From positions 1 through 54,277 of the forward strand of contig JALHOP010000022.1 in assembly GCA_022842935.1 (NCBI GenBank): DNA of 54,277 nt, read 5' to 3'. The position numbers and the translations under genes are program-made. The notes beneath the pieces were generated by a model, which was given only the letters and a program-made list of their open reading frames with translations, was not told where the DNA came from and did not search any database. Positions 4,026 through 54,277 of the stretch are shown piece by piece (positions within the stretch are counted from its first letter, which is position 1; each line of letters begins with the position of its first letter). This stretch comes from Myxococcota bacterium (GTDB lineage: Bacteria; Myxococcota; XYA12-FULL-58-9; JALHOP01).

Positions 4026-4523
4026 TTGGCTTCCAACCTAATCTCCCTGCTGGTGAAGAGCGGCTGGCGTTTCGAGCCGCCCACGATGCGCGCGGAGACG
4101 ATGGCATTGCCCCCGAACCTGCCCGCTGAGCTCGCGCGCTTCTGTCGCTCTTTCGATCTACTCGCGTCCGCGGACGACACCGCTTGGTTCTTCAGCTACC
4201 GCGACTACGCGTCCGCGTCTGAGGCGGCGTTCAGTTGGAACGAGTTCGAGATCGCAGATTTGGCGGCGGCGATGAACGAGCAGCAGCGGCAAGCGGTTGT
4301 TGAATTTTGGAAAGCTCACGTCCCCGTCGCGATGAGCGTTCGCGACGACCATGCGTTCATCGCGGTCGGTGTCGCGCAACAAAACAGCGGGGCGCTCTAT
4401 TTGGGCGAGAGCTCGTATCCGGAAGACATCGAGCGGCTCTCTAGTAACCTTGACGACCTAGCACAGATGGTCGAACGCTTCTTTGCTGGGCAGCAAACGC
4501 GTGCCTTGATGCGCTTTCTTTAG
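4026..4523 (+). CDS. Possible SUKH (SMI1/KNR4)-superfamily protein
   Basis: A 165-residue soluble protein; start is TTG at 4026, with later ATG options at 4086 and 4101. The N-terminal helix LISLLVKSGWRFEPP, the LPAELARFCRSFDLL segment, and the C-terminal layout (DHAFIAVGVA, GALYLGESSYPEDIERL, LDDLAQMVERFF) resemble SUKH proteins, many of which are immunity proteins to secreted toxins. No toxin partner gene is next to it, which would make it an orphan immunity gene carried in the island. The family call is by pattern only. Confidence 0.5.
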   Translation: MASNLISLLVKSGWRFEPPTMRAETMALPPNLPAELARFCRSFDLLASADDTAWFFSYRDYASASEAAFSWNEFEIADLAAAMNEQQRQAVVEFWKAHVPVAMSVRDDHAFIAVGVAQQNSGALYLGESSYPEDIERLSSNLDDLAQMVERFFAGQQTRALMRFL

Positions 4524-4814
4524 CTTGCTCCCTGTATCGCCTACGGCGACGGCCATCTCCTATCGCGTCGACGTGCCGCGACCCGTCGGCTTCACTCGGC
4601 TGGCAAGAGATCTCTTGTCGGCGGCCGAGCGATGATTGGACGCTTCGGGGGCTAGGTCAGAGGCGAAGTTTTGGGATCAAGTGCCACCGCCGATGCCTGG
4701 CCTCGCGTAGTCACCGCGCCCAATAGCCGATAGAGGCGGTCCGTCAAGCGGGAAGATCTCCCCACTCTCGGTCGTGCGAGTCCCCAAGATGGCCGCAGGG
4801 GTCGAAGCGCCGCT
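4524..4814. other. Non-coding patchwork of broken repeats
   Basis: No gene. 4541-4600 contains GGCGACGGCCATCTC and a segment like the left arm of the structured repeat, in swapped order. 4727-4783 is a truncated relative of the 234-bp repeat (GCCGATAGAGGCGGTCCGTC onward). 4784-4814 is the beginning of a structured repeat (CAAGATGGCCGCAGGGGTCG) broken off where the IS91 relic starts. This shows repeated rearrangement among these elements. Confidence 0.7.
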
Positions 4815-41978: not shown

Positions 41979-42953
41979 GTGAGCAACATCGCGGGTGTCG
42001 AGGCGGGCGAGGGGACGCGTTTCGAGACGACCAGTCGTGCGTTCGGGCACGGGACGTCGAGCGTCGTGGCTGATGTTGTGGTTGGCCCATACCGGGTGCT
42101 CGAGGTGCTCGGCGAAGGCGCGTCATCGCGCGTCTATGTCGCCGAGCACCTCGAGGATGGTCGGCGGGTGGCGCTGAAGCTCATGTTGCCCTGCCACGGT
42201 GATAGCCTCACCAAGGTCATGCGTTTTCAGCTCGAGTGCGAGTTGCTCGAGCGTCTCAGCCATCCGAACGTGGTGAAGCTCATCGAGCATGGCCACTGCG
42301 AGGAACGCTACGCCGCCATCGAGCTGCTGCATGGGGAAACCCTGAGGCAACGGCTTGTCCGTGAAAGCGTACTGACGCTGCGTGAAAGTCTCGGGATAGG
42401 TATCCAACTGGCCGACGCGTTGGAGGCCGTGCACTCGGCAGGCGTCATTCACTGCGATGTGAAGCCCGACAATCTTTTTCTAGCGCAGGCCGGCTTTGGT
42501 GCGCAGATCCTGAAGCTGTACGATTTCGATGCGGCGCGCTGGATCGACAAGAACACCGGACGGTCGACATCGATTCTGCCGCATGGCGCGGTCCTCGGAA
42601 CACCGGGCTACATGGCGCCTGAGCAAGAGCAGGGAGCTCACGTCGATCACCGCGCCGACATCTATGCGTTCGGTGTGGTTTTGTACGAGATGCTGACGAA
42701 CGCTTGTCCCTACGGGCAAACCACTTCCTTCTCCGACATTGTGCGCACGCGATTTTTCGGGGCTCCGAAACCGCTGCGGGCCTTCCGTCACCTCAACGAG
42801 CTCCCTCCGAGCGTCGACACGCTGGTACGTCGTTGTATCGAGCGCGTACCGGAGAGGCGGCCGTGCGATATGAGGGAGGTGAGCGGAAAACTGCGGGATG
42901 TCGCGCGGGATGTGGACGACGGGAGCGGGTGGGACCCAGGGCTTGCGGCCTAG
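41979..42953 (+). CDS. Hanks-type serine/threonine kinase with variant motifs
   Basis: A 324-residue protein with a GTG start. Glycine loop VLGEGASSRVYVA (43-55), K67 in VALKLM, HCDVKPDN (158-165, Cys in place of Arg in H-R-D), and GTPGYMAPE (207-215). The metal-binding D-F-G reads D-F-D (182-184). The Asp that binds Mg2+ and the catalytic Asp are kept, so some activity is possible, but the loss of the glycine is unusual. No membrane segment or extra domain. The stop is followed at once by a 7-bp satellite. Confidence 0.93.
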   Translation: MSNIAGVEAGEGTRFETTSRAFGHGTSSVVADVVVGPYRVLEVLGEGASSRVYVAEHLEDGRRVALKLMLPCHGDSLTKVMRFQLECELLERLSHPNVVKLIEHGHCEERYAAIELLHGETLRQRLVRESVLTLRESLGIGIQLADALEAVHSAGVIHCDVKPDNLFLAQAGFGAQILKLYDFDAARWIDKNTGRSTSILPHGAVLGTPGYMAPEQEQGAHVDHRADIYAFGVVLYEMLTNACPYGQTTSFSDIVRTRFFGAPKPLRAFRHLNELPPSVDTLVRRCIERVPERRPCDMREVSGKLRDVARDVDDGSGWDPGLAA

Positions 42954-43196
42954 CCTCTCGGTTCTCGGTTCTCGGTTCTCGGTTCTCGGTCATCGGTCAT
43001 CGGCATCGGTCATCGGTCATCGGTCATCGGCATCGGTCATCGGTCATCGGTCGTCGGTCGTCGGTCGTCGGTCGTCGGTCATCGGTCGTCGGTCGTCGGT
43101 CGTCGGTCATCGGTCGTCGGTCATCGGTCGTCGGTCGTCGGTCGTCGGTCGTCGGTCGTCGGCTCTCGGTCATCGGACCTCGGCTCTCGGTCATCG
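42954..43196 (+). repeat. 7-bp satellite array (unit GTNNTCG)
   Basis: About 34 copies in tandem, beginning right at the kinase stop codon. Units are GTTCTCG, GTCATCG and GTCGTCG, with two 6-bp slips (GCATCG). The three unit types are grouped and interspersed. The same unit, in the opposite orientation, makes up the array inside the RluA gene at 44749. No CRISPR-like spacers. Confidence 0.95.
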
Positions 43197-43296
43197 ACAG
43201 CCCGGGCCTCCTCATCCCTTCGCGACACACGCTCCAAAATTCGCTATCAATTTGGACGCCCTTCCCCGTTTAGACTACCCTGCAAGACGTACCCCG

Positions 43297-44157
43297 ATGG
43301 CGACTCAGTTCTTCGGTCAGTTCCTCCTCACGCGCGGCCTTTTATCGCGGACACAACTCCTCGACGCGGTGGAATACCAGGAGCGCCACAATCTGCGCCT
43401 TGGCGACTACGCGGTAAAAAAAGGATACATCACCCCAGCCGACGCGGCGCGTATCCACAGCGCTCAAACCACGCGTGACATCCAATTCGGCGAGGCTGCG
43501 GTGGAGCTCGGCCTTCTCAAGCACGAACAACTCAAAGATCTGTTGCGCGCGCAGCAGGCCGACCACCTCTACCTCGGTGATTGTTTGACGAAGCTCGGCG
43601 TTTTGTCCGCCGACGCGGTCAGCAAGGCGCTCGCTGACTACCGCGAGGATCAGCGTGGTCAGGAAGGGGATAGCCTCCATATCCCAGATGACTTTCCCGA
43701 CGTCGCGTTTGCGGCTGAAGCCTGCGAGCTCACTCGCAAAATGCTCCTGCGGCTCTGGGGAACACCAACCAAGTACGGCGTAGCGCGCTCGGGAGTTACC
43801 GACCTCAAGCTTCCGGGCACCGCCGCGAGTATCGACGTTCGCGGCGATGTCACTGGTCGCTACATTCTCGGCATACCCGATGAGCTTACGCTGCATGCCA
43901 TGCGCCGTCTCTTTGGCAGCGTCGACATGCAGAGTCGCGAGGACCGCATCGATTTGGTGAGCGAGCTCGTGAACATCGTCATCGGGAACCTCGCCGGCAC
44001 TCTGGCGAGTCTCGGCCAGACGATCGAGTTATCCTCTCCCAAGCTCGCACCCGGGCAACTTCGCCTCGAAGGCGAGCGCGCTCTTGTGCTGCCGCTCATC
44101 GCACCGCTCAATGAGCTCGCGGTGGTGATCACCTACGCTTCCGGCTTCCGCGTTTGA
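43297..44157 (+). CDS. MshEN-like / CheX-like two-domain protein
   Basis: A 286-residue protein starting MATQFFGQFLLTRGLLSRTQL. The N-terminal ~115 residues hold two MshEN-type repeats (LLTRGLLSRTQLLDAVEYQ, then AVELGLLKHEQLKDLLRAQQ), the fold that binds cyclic di-GMP in GspE/MshE ATPases. The C-terminal half is CheX/CheC-like: a GTAASIDVRGDVTGRYILGI segment, DLVSELVNIVIGNLAGTL (helix with E-x-x-N) and VVITYASGF. A role in chemosensory or c-di-GMP signalling is inferred. Confidence 0.75.
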   Translation: MATQFFGQFLLTRGLLSRTQLLDAVEYQERHNLRLGDYAVKKGYITPADAARIHSAQTTRDIQFGEAAVELGLLKHEQLKDLLRAQQADHLYLGDCLTKLGVLSADAVSKALADYREDQRGQEGDSLHIPDDFPDVAFAAEACELTRKMLLRLWGTPTKYGVARSGVTDLKLPGTAASIDVRGDVTGRYILGIPDELTLHAMRRLFGSVDMQSREDRIDLVSELVNIVIGNLAGTLASLGQTIELSSPKLAPGQLRLEGERALVLPLIAPLNELAVVITYASGFRV

Positions 44158-44347
44158 CGGCGTCGCGCCGGGGCCAGGCAACATCATCGTTGCCGTCGCG
44201 CAGCGACAGGAGCGGATGGCGTTCGGGCGCGAACATGCCAGCCTCGAGATAGCCCTCGGCGATGAGGTCATCGCTCTCGAAATGTTGGTACGTGATGCCT
44301 CCACTCGATCCGAGGGTGACGAGCGTGGCTACTTCTCGGCGGTTCAT
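44129..44347 (-). CDS. Small hypothetical protein, 72 residues
   Basis: Starts MNRREVATLVTLGSSGGITY with a strong AAGGAGAG Shine-Dalgarno, which is the main reason for calling it. Then HFESDDLIAEGYLEAGMFAP and a basic end. Convergent with, and overlapping by 29 bases, the preceding gene. Family unknown. Confidence 0.55.
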   Translation of the reverse strand: MNRREVATLVTLGSSGGITYQHFESDDLIAEGYLEAGMFAPERHPLLSLRDGNDDVAWPRRDAVKRGSRKRR

Positions 44348-44529
44348 ACGACTCTCCTTGGGGCGCCGCGATAGCGGTCGCGTGAACCTGATGGTTTCAA
44401 GTGGGATGCCAACGGCAAGGCTTGGACGGTTGCGGTTTAGAGCGCGGTTGCGCGCGCATCGCGGACGCGTGTGTCATTCTGCGACGAATTTTCTCGACGG
44501 ACGCTGCCCCGACGCTCGAGAAGAGCGCC

Positions 44530-45657
44530 ATGCGCCGTAGCATCAAGGTGAGTGGACCTAACGCTGGCCGACGTGTCGATGCGTTTCTTCGCCGCGAGCT
44601 CGCGACCGTGCCGAGGCACACGCTGATGAAGTGGCTGCGGACCGGCGTGGTGCGGGTCAATGGCAAGAAGGTCAAGCCAGAGGCGCGGCTGAATGAAGGG
44701 GATGAGATTGGGCTGCCGGTCTTGGACGATGACCGGGCACCGAAGCCCGAGGACCGATCACCGAGAACCGATGGCCGATCATCGAGAGCCGACGTCCGAT
44801 CACCGAGAGCCGATGACCGATCACCGAGAACCAATGACCGATCACCGAGAACCGATGACCGATCACCGAGAACCGATGACCGATCACCGAGAACCGATGG
44901 CCGATCACCGAGAACCGATGTCCGATCGCCGAGAACCGATGACCGATCGCCGAAGCCCGATCTGGTCGTGGTTTACGAGGACGCCGACCTCCTCATCGTC
45001 GACAAACCCGCGCACCTTCCTGCGCACGCCGGGACCGGCCATCGCGATTCCCTCGCTGCCCGCGTCATCTCGTACCTCGCCGCCGAACACGCACCGGTCG
45101 GCCACAAGCCCGGCCTCGCCCAGCGCCTGGACAGCGGCGTTAGCGGTCTTGTCCCTATCGGCAAACACGCGGCCGCCCTTCGCGTACTCGCCGCCGCCGT
45201 CGCCGCCGACCAGGTGCGCAAGATCTACCGTGGCATCGTTCTGGGTGAGCTCGCCTCGGCAGAGGGCGAGATCCTGCTCCCGTTGCGCATCGATGACCAG
45301 CCAATGGGCAATCGCCCTCGCGTTCACCCAGACCCCAAAGGTCTGGCCGCGCACACGACGTGGAAGCGCGTCGAGGTGCTTCTTGGCGCAAGCGTAGTCG
45401 ACGTCGAGATTCACACCGGCCGCACCCACCAAATCCGGGCGCACCTCAAAGCCATCGGGCATCCCCTCATCGGCGATCCGCGTTACGGTGACACTGCGCG
45501 TGAGAACAAGCTCGGCGTCGCGAAGACAATCGATCGCCCCGCGCTACACGCCCGACGCCTTAGCTTTCGCCATCCGACGACCAGCGAAGAGCTTGCAGCG
45601 GATGCGCCATTCCCCGCCGACATCACCCGCCTTCTTGCCGTGCTTCGCCGGCGCTAG
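44530..45657 (+). CDS. RluA-family pseudouridine synthase with a heptapeptide-repeat linker
   Basis: A 375-residue protein from MRRSIKVSGPNAGRRVDAFL. S4 RNA-binding domain (1-64), a 70-residue insert of ten heptads (74-143, consensus D-D-R-S-P-R-T), then the RluA catalytic domain: VVYEDADLLIVDKPAHLPAH, the catalytic aspartate D201 in AQRLDSGVSGL (Gln in place of the usual His before R-L-D), and HTGRTHQIRAHL. It isomerises uridine in rRNA or tRNA. The insert is encoded by a 7-bp satellite and replaces the normally short linker. ATG at 44530 preferred over a frame open from 44401. Confidence 0.92.
   Translation: MRRSIKVSGPNAGRRVDAFLRRELATVPRHTLMKWLRTGVVRVNGKKVKPEARLNEGDEIGLPVLDDDRAPKPEDRSPRTDGRSSRADVRSPRADDRSPRTNDRSPRTDDRSPRTDDRSPRTDGRSPRTDVRSPRTDDRSPKPDLVVVYEDADLLIVDKPAHLPAHAGTGHRDSLAARVISYLAAEHAPVGHKPGLAQRLDSGVSGLVPIGKHAAALRVLAAAVAADQVRKIYRGIVLGELASAEGEILLPLRIDDQPMGNRPRVHPDPKGLAAHTTWKRVEVLLGASVVDVEIHTGRTHQIRAHLKAIGHPLIGDPRYGDTARENKLGVAKTIDRPALHARRLSFRHPTTSEELAADAPFPADITRLLAVLRRR
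44749..44958 (+). repeat. 7-bp satellite array inside the RluA gene (unit CGANNAC)
   Basis: 210 bp made of ten 21-bp repeats, each of three 7-mers (CGATCAC, CGAGAAC, CGATGAC). Because 21 is a multiple of three, the frame is kept and each 21-mer encodes one heptapeptide. The unit is the reverse complement of that in the array at 42954-43196. Confidence 0.95.
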
Positions 45658-53946: not shown

Positions 53947-54277
53947 GTGGGTAACAAGTTGTTTGTTGGCGGTCTGAGCTGGAACACCAAGGATGATGGT
54001 CTGCGCGCCGCGTTTGAGCGGTTCGGAGCAATCAGCGAAGCCAAGGTGATCCTGGACCGCGACACTGGCCGTTCGCGCGGCTTTGGTTTCGTGACTTTCG
54101 GCAGCACGGACGAAGCGCGCAAGGCCATGGAAGAGATGAATGGCGCCGAGCTCGACGGTCGCACCATCAAGGTGAACGAGGCTGAAGAGAAGCAGCGCCG
54201 TCCTGGTGGCGGCGGCGGCGGTGGCTACGGCGGCGGTGGTGGCGGCTACGGCGGCGGTGGCGGTGGCTACGGCGGCG
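53947..54277 (+). CDS. Glycine-rich RRM RNA-binding protein, 3' end outside the window
   Basis: The first ~110 codons are present. GTG start ([12 protein letters not shown]) with AAGGAG upstream. RNP-2 is KLFVGGL and RNP-1 is RGFGFVTF, both intact with their aromatic RNA-contacting residues. After residue 80 comes a Gly-rich tail of Y-G-G-G-G-G-G repeats running off the end. Bacterial RRM proteins of this Rbp type bind single-stranded RNA and are often cold-induced; the Gly-rich tail may support condensation. The repeat is encoded by a near-perfect (GGCGGTGGC) run. Confidence 0.95.

Follow-up and report, generated by a model that had tools for sequence, protein, structure and literature searches.

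In-frame copies of a dispersed heptanucleotide satellite in a Myxococcota bacterium, with a possible source in elements carrying S23p-type genes

A contig of 54,277 nucleotides from a Myxococcota bacterium (JALHOP010000022.1, assembly GCA_022842935.1; the window hereafter, and contig C22 of a draft genome of 6.28 Mb in 46 contigs) contains two tandem arrays of a 7-bp unit, TCGGYNN, one of them intergenic and the other, in the opposite orientation, within the open reading frame (ORF) of an RluA-family pseudouridine synthase. Both are best read as copies of one satellite that is dispersed through the genome, captured in frame in the RluA gene as a filler linker of free sequence and derived, by our inference, from elements built on S23p/IVP genes (PF05635); we give this reading a probability of about 0.75. 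On this reading a DNA satellite is a source of new polar and probably disordered segments in proteins of replication and RNA modification, and its capture carries a signature, namely a repeat period divisible by three and the use of one strand. It also offers a lead on two questions, the origin of bacterial heptamer repeats and the role of the widespread S23p/IVP protein.

Distribution and sequence of the satellite

The stretches of this genome that were fetched hold at least 39 arrays with 835 units, eight of the arrays in coding frames. The number of arrays is a lower bound because several of them end contigs, and it includes one 15-bp repeat that merely resembles the satellite (L110 1174). 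Over the 835 units the core is nearly invariant (T 96%, C 99%, G 98%, G 97%) and the last three bases vary, the fifth position being C in 49% and T in 34% of units; one core recurs at many loci, as befits a dispersed heptanucleotide satellite. A pattern of six consecutive units has 297 matches in the genome against nine for its reversed control, so the arrays are not a product of chance. A first-pass annotation, made from the letters of the window, had recognised the same satellite in both arrays, inverted with respect to each other (Table 1), and had proposed the genome-wide count given here. It had written the unit as GTNNTCG; the 7-bp unit is real, but this consensus undercounts because the unit consists of a conserved TCGG followed by three looser bases.

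The satellite is patchily distributed in the phylum. The six-unit match occurs in eight of 195 genomes, with 375 matches in this genome, 364 in a relative from a different family of the same order (G002) and between one and seven in each of the other six. No relative compared shares its genus or family with this genome. Of the seven same-order relatives, five gave no match in either a six-unit or a four-unit search, and a sixth (G006) gave just two, in the four-unit search. In a tree of DnaG and DnaX, the nodes that bear on a sister relationship of this genome (G000) and G002 have support of 39-56, and we therefore make no claim for vertical or horizontal descent. A random sample of the genome (20 stretches of 20 kb) held no period-7 array, which says little on other heptamers because only about 2.5 arrays would be expected from 39.

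The satellite would spread between genes and gain or lose whole units in place. Ordinary slippage offers another account, in which the arrays arose separately from local sequence and resemble one another by convergence or composition bias. Slippage or unequal exchange does act on each array, as array-specific units (TTC, TCA, CTC, CAA and others) and local higher-order units show. Few arrays have flanks in common, the exceptions being a group of seven that mostly lie at contig ends and one pair (L113 and L116); considered as possible miniature inverted-repeat transposable elements or transposon ends, the arrays thus have similar flanks mainly near contig ends. As the source of the arrays, however, slippage is unlikely. 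Independent slippage would not choose one core, hold it at 96-99% while the following bases are free and leave the reversed pattern nearly absent, nor would it concentrate six-unit matches in two of 195 genomes.

In-frame copies in unrelated genes

Eight of the 39 arrays lie in ORFs of unrelated genes, seven of which are supported by Pfam, and a ninth coding copy was found in G002 (Table 1). This in-frame placement in many hosts is like that of the Rickettsia palindromic elements (RPEs), and the arrays are located in linkers or tails of the host proteins. The gene reads the complement of TCGGYNN in all nine (p = 0.004), which yields heptads of the form P-x-[TA]-[DE]-x-R-x, polar and rich in proline. 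This strand rule does not reflect stop avoidance, because among the other arrays stops close the gene strand more often: 32 of 57 have no open frame on the gene strand, against nine of 57 on the opposite strand. Hydrophobic residues make up 7% of the peptides on the gene strand and 27% on the opposite strand, and from their composition the array peptides are probably disordered.

Coding arrays also differ in period, taken as the smallest within 0.03 of the best in arrays of at least ten units. The period is divisible by three in all eight measurable coding arrays (21, 21, 42, 42, 36, 42 and 42 bp in this genome and 21 bp in G002) but in only three of 56 other arrays (Fisher p = 4e-8), the non-coding exceptions being L087 (21 bp) and, in G002, L179 (63 bp) and L183 (42 bp). 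Two arrays were left out of this test, a degenerate one inside an ORF (L080 2197) and the 15-bp repeat L110 1174. A period of three is not required for an open frame, since all three frames are open in 10 of 57 other arrays on the gene strand and in 32 of 57 on the opposite strand. The mark of coding arrays is a period divisible by three and not higher-order units as such, which at 14 and 28 bp occur in other arrays too. Three arrays in long ORFs, all on the opposite strand and either before the first domain or in domain-less frames, are doubtful: L080 4494 and L176 4343, with 14-bp periods, were counted as non-coding, and L082 7497, with eight units, is below the size for the period test. Treating all three as coding would bring the period count to 8 of 10 and the strand count to 9 of 12; adding L080 2197 would make the latter 9 of 13.

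In the RluA gene, the coding array lies between a 5′ S4 domain and a 3′ PseudoU_synth_2 domain (Pfam E = 1.7e-5 and 3.5e-19, both above cut-off), which place the protein in the RluA family. The first-pass annotation had correctly seen ten heptads between the two domains; they read EDRSPRT ... DDRSPKP. Unit autocorrelation in this array is 0.78 at lag 3 and 0.26-0.30 at lags 1, 2, 4 and 5, whereas that of the intergenic array is flat at 0.59-0.68, without a 21-bp higher order. Within the window, 21-bp units are therefore confined to the coding array, as had been noted; the 14- and 28-bp units of other arrays set the limit of that statement. The addition or removal of one or two 7-bp units shifts the frame, and one of the alternative frames meets TGA. 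Harmless change of length, earlier thought possible in steps of seven residues, is accordingly restricted on the DNA level to steps of three units (21 bp).

The segment that holds the array was compared with homologues for the hosts RluA, DnaG and DnaX. It measures 91 amino acids in this RluA protein and 25-36 in 26 homologues, none of which has the insert (26 of 29 other loci; L051, L053 and L055 excluded). The DnaG segment measures 83 amino acids here and 22-44 in 12 homologues, all again lacking the insert, with split matches in agreement (L156, partial, and L157 excluded). Among the ten RluA units pN/pS is 1.03, synonymous and non-synonymous differences being about equal, a figure of low power from ten short related units; no purifying selection is seen among them, as would be expected of filler. 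Heptads that are ancient and conserved as protein with unrelated codons, the pattern that would speak against capture, are not what the homologues and this ratio reveal. Together with the genome-wide spread and the seven other frames of this genome, the lengthened linker bears out the original idea of a spreading satellite captured as a linker. The strand rule, the period rule and the association of such arrays with S23p/IVP genes lay beyond the reach of that annotation.

We propose that copies falling into a linker or tail would have survived only where the complement was read and where growth proceeded in blocks divisible by three, which would have selected the higher-order units of 21, 36 and 42 bp. 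The linker between the S4 and catalytic domains of RluA would have been lengthened by about 60 residues in this way, and its peptide would be filler, free in sequence. The heptads could instead have been selected for a property of their own, such as phosphorylation, arginine-rich RNA binding or phase separation. The hosts include RNA- and DNA-handling proteins with polar Arg/Pro/Asp-rich inserts, namely RluA, DnaG, DnaX, RecG and the enzyme at L120, which we take to be RsuA-like, and R-S-P is kept in nine of the ten RluA units. We regard such a function as quite improbable, given the pN/pS of 1.03, residues that follow from the DNA unit and the presence of inserts in a membrane protein, a TPR protein and a putative lipoprotein as well; R-S-P itself is a by-product of the DNA unit, other hosts carry different residues at that position, and the phosphorylated linker once suggested is left without support. 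Slightly less probable still is a contingency locus, kept because changes of one or two units, with their frameshifts and TGA, would toggle RluA by phase variation, for the 21-bp higher order implies that the changes fixed were in frame, and the insert also occurs in two replication proteins, DnaG and DnaX, that are expected to be essential and whose switching off would be lethal.

Table 1. Window features and hosts of coding arrays (L numbers are our locus handles)
Feature	Location	Strand	Details
Intergenic TCGGYNN array	42958..43193	+	34 units; between Ser/Thr kinase gene and CheX-domain gene
Coding TCGGYNN array, full extent	44737-44960	-	32 units
Coding array core	44749..44958	-	exactly ten 21-bp units; gene reads complement; ten D-D-R-S-P-R-T-type heptads
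RluA-family pseudouridine synthase gene	44530..45657	+	from ATG 44530; ORF open from 44401
Ser/Thr protein kinase gene	41979..42953	+	Pfam, ORF; ends 5 bp before intergenic array
CheX-domain protein gene	43297..44157	+	Pfam, ORF; probable start ATG 43297; ORF open from 42898, through intergenic array
Coding host: RluA	window		Pfam
Coding host: DUF2339 protein	L089		Pfam
Coding host: DnaG	L112		Pfam
Coding host: TPR protein	L115		Pfam
Coding host: S4 + PseudoU_synth_2 enzyme	L120		Pfam
Coding host: RecG	L173		Pfam
Coding host: DnaX	L174		Pfam
Coding host: putative lipoprotein	L110 4216-4830		weakest; codon score -10, Pfam under cut-off
Ninth coding copy: Ser/Thr kinase tail	L178, relative G002		Pfam

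Several of these loci have further features. Just 5′ of dnaG (L112), two TCGG arrays at 4487-4535 (+) and 4553-4657 (-) face each other about 18 bp apart and resemble the inverted pairs described in Xanthomonas. The 15-bp repeat of L110 (encoding PIAEP) lies in a gene with a receiver-like domain (3-2075, -; Pfam below cut-off) and consists of TCGG-like cores at spacings of 7 and 8 bp; it may be derived from the satellite. At L080 1394-3385 (-), a single ORF seems to fuse two proteins, with a membrane-anchor-like tail followed by a signal-peptide-like stretch, and runs across a degenerate, oppositely oriented array; it may be a read-through fusion spanning the satellite. The DnaX linkers of two relatives, G005 (L193) and G003 (L196), contain other repeat-like peptides (VIPTKAKND... 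VIPAKAGIQ; CHPRESGDP), presumably translations of dispersed palindromic repeats, and intergenic repeats may commonly insert in the tau linker.

S23p/IVP genes as a possible source

On contig C1, the flank of the group of seven arrays leads to two small PF05635 genes, each behind a hairpin and both lying between two TCGG arrays. PF05635 matches number 15 in G002 and two in this genome, with none in the five array-less genomes of the same order, and occur in 56 of the 195 genomes of the phylum. We scored period-p identity within 350 bp of 104 IVP loci from 39 genomes, mostly the best-scoring of those listed; the identity threshold was fixed after part of these loci had been seen, and one locus with a stop in the frame read (L300) was retained in the count. 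A 6- or 7-bp array flanks 72 of the 104 loci, 55 at lag 6 and 23 at lag 7, with none at lags 4, 5 or 8. Control figures are one of 39 RluA/DnaG flanks, one of 248 genes of this genome and eight of 87 positions that belong to the same loci but lie 700 bp or more away. At the 18 loci with arrays on both sides, units match at 0.75 as reverse complements, 0.60 directly and 0.52 in mismatched pairs. Perfect inverted matches of at least 12 bp between IVP flanks are found in 30%, compared with 3% in mismatched pairs.

The arrangement recurs in a second set, for which 36 plasmid records were retrieved by tblastn with one IVP protein and 20, mostly from Cyanobacteria, were analysed at the same threshold. 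Arrays pass at lag 7 in 14 of the 20 and at lag 8 in two, and at no other lag from 4 to 12. Of 16 two-sided plasmid loci, ten have full reverse-complement units, four match at 6/7 and two at 3/7; the layout of an intervening sequence, with a PF05635 gene between complementary arrays, is found in 14 of them. In Nostoc sp. C052 the two arrays are predicted to form a stem of about 30 bp around the IVP gene (minimum free energy -149.7, z -5.1). Some IVP copies are embedded in operons, as in cas6-IVP-cas4, cas10-IVP-cmr3 and nrdB-IVP-nrdA, the last with the IVP gene on the opposite strand. The one solved relative of the protein found here is XCC0516 (PDB 2gsc, five chains), which we take to be from X. 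campestris. This agrees with the introduction of a paper on 23S rRNA intervening sequences (PMC4990558).

In G010 (L261, L263-L266, L270-L273), hexamer arrays 5′ of IVP genes combine a fixed core with free bases (CCGCNN), the design of TCGGYNN with a period of 6. The presence of an IVP gene was considered as an indicator of TCGG arrays across genomes and rejected: G010, G060 and G063, with 23, 16 and 13 PF05635 matches, lack TCGG arrays, and the arrays that flank their IVP genes mostly have 6-bp units. The window itself ends, at 54208-54277, inside the gene of a glycine-rich protein, RRM-like by motif, whose tail seems to resume at the start of contig C1 (L078 1-206). C22 and C1 may be adjacent, in which case the IVP genes and their arrays would lie a few kb past the end of the window.

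The source of the satellite may thus be sought in elements built on S23p/IVP genes flanked by 6- or 7-bp arrays, as seen in this phylum and in Cyanobacteria; where the flanking arrays are inverted, the transcript could fold into a long stem like that of 23S rRNA intervening sequences. A broader conjecture, which we would place somewhat short of even odds, is that S23p/IVP genes outside rRNA form a large unrecognised class of elements in this phylum, in Cyanobacteria and in others, each a gene with element-specific 6- or 7-bp arrays that are often inverted. The S23p ring would recognise or make these arrays as DNA or as an RNA stem, and the satellites of Xanthomonas, Nostoc and this genome would be gene-free products that feed new disordered linkers. 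In the open-access literature, subscription papers lying outside the scope, no report linking heptamer repeats to S23p/IVP intervening sequences was found among the papers listed; the passages of one paper in which both kinds of term co-occur use them apart (PMC5524665).

Several points count against the interpretation put forward here. The period rule is partly circular because long open frames helped to define coding arrays, gene calls other than Pfam hits are home-made, and that of the lipoprotein host is weak (Table 1). DnaX linkers range from 40 to 153 amino acids among relatives, so that absence of the insert there proves nothing, and the data come from a single strain. As to the source, the arrays flanking IVP genes are co-oriented in this genome and in G002 (five of five two-sided loci), not inverted as elsewhere, and IVP genes may have entered ready-made arrays instead of producing them. 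Neither window array is near an IVP gene or has the layout of an S23p intervening sequence, the PF05635 search finding only the two genes on contig C1, and most arrays of this genome are far from these. Moreover, an array is missing at 32 of the 104 IVP loci, and TCGG arrays do not occur in most of the genomes with IVP genes. Since the arrays are co-oriented and mostly far from IVP genes, we infer rather than observe an origin from S23p elements; in-frame capture stands independently of it.

Comparison with known repeat systems

In-frame capture of dispersed repeats is known from the RPEs, and the present case would extend it to a 7-bp tandem satellite with a period rule. In the passages of PMC10969869 that describe them, RPEs are likewise a dispersed repeat family found in frame in many unrelated genes, at sites that the proteins tolerate. 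They are about 150 bp long and named palindromic, however, whereas TCGGYNN is a 7-bp tandem repeat that grows in place and obeys the period rule, and the arrays described here are not RPEs proper.

The GGGNATC heptamers of Xanthomonas and Nostoc also form 7-bp tandem arrays throughout the genome, mostly between genes, and 70 and 75 inverted pairs are given for two Xanthomonas genomes in the relevant part of PMC4692102. Their unit differs from TCGGYNN, and the same part describes them as under-represented in genes and generally unlinked to mobile elements. The text of that paper contains none of the terms four helix, S23 and XCC0516, although XCC0516 is related to the IVP protein. TAACTGA repeats of Beggiatoaceae and Cyanobacteria are a further case of 7-bp arrays spread patchily over distant lineages, with some copies within ORFs, mostly at protein ends; a 21-bp higher order like that of the RluA array is not found in the passages of PMC4679880 on these repeats.

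Finally, the 23S rRNA intervening sequences consist of an S23p ORF between complementary, stem-forming ends and are cut out by RNase III, and the S23p protein of X. campestris is a pentameric ring, according to the sections of PMC4990558 that deal with them. The IVP loci described here share the gene and, in many cases, the complementary ends. They differ in lying outside rRNA genes where annotated, and in that their complementary ends are tandem arrays of 6 or 7 bp.
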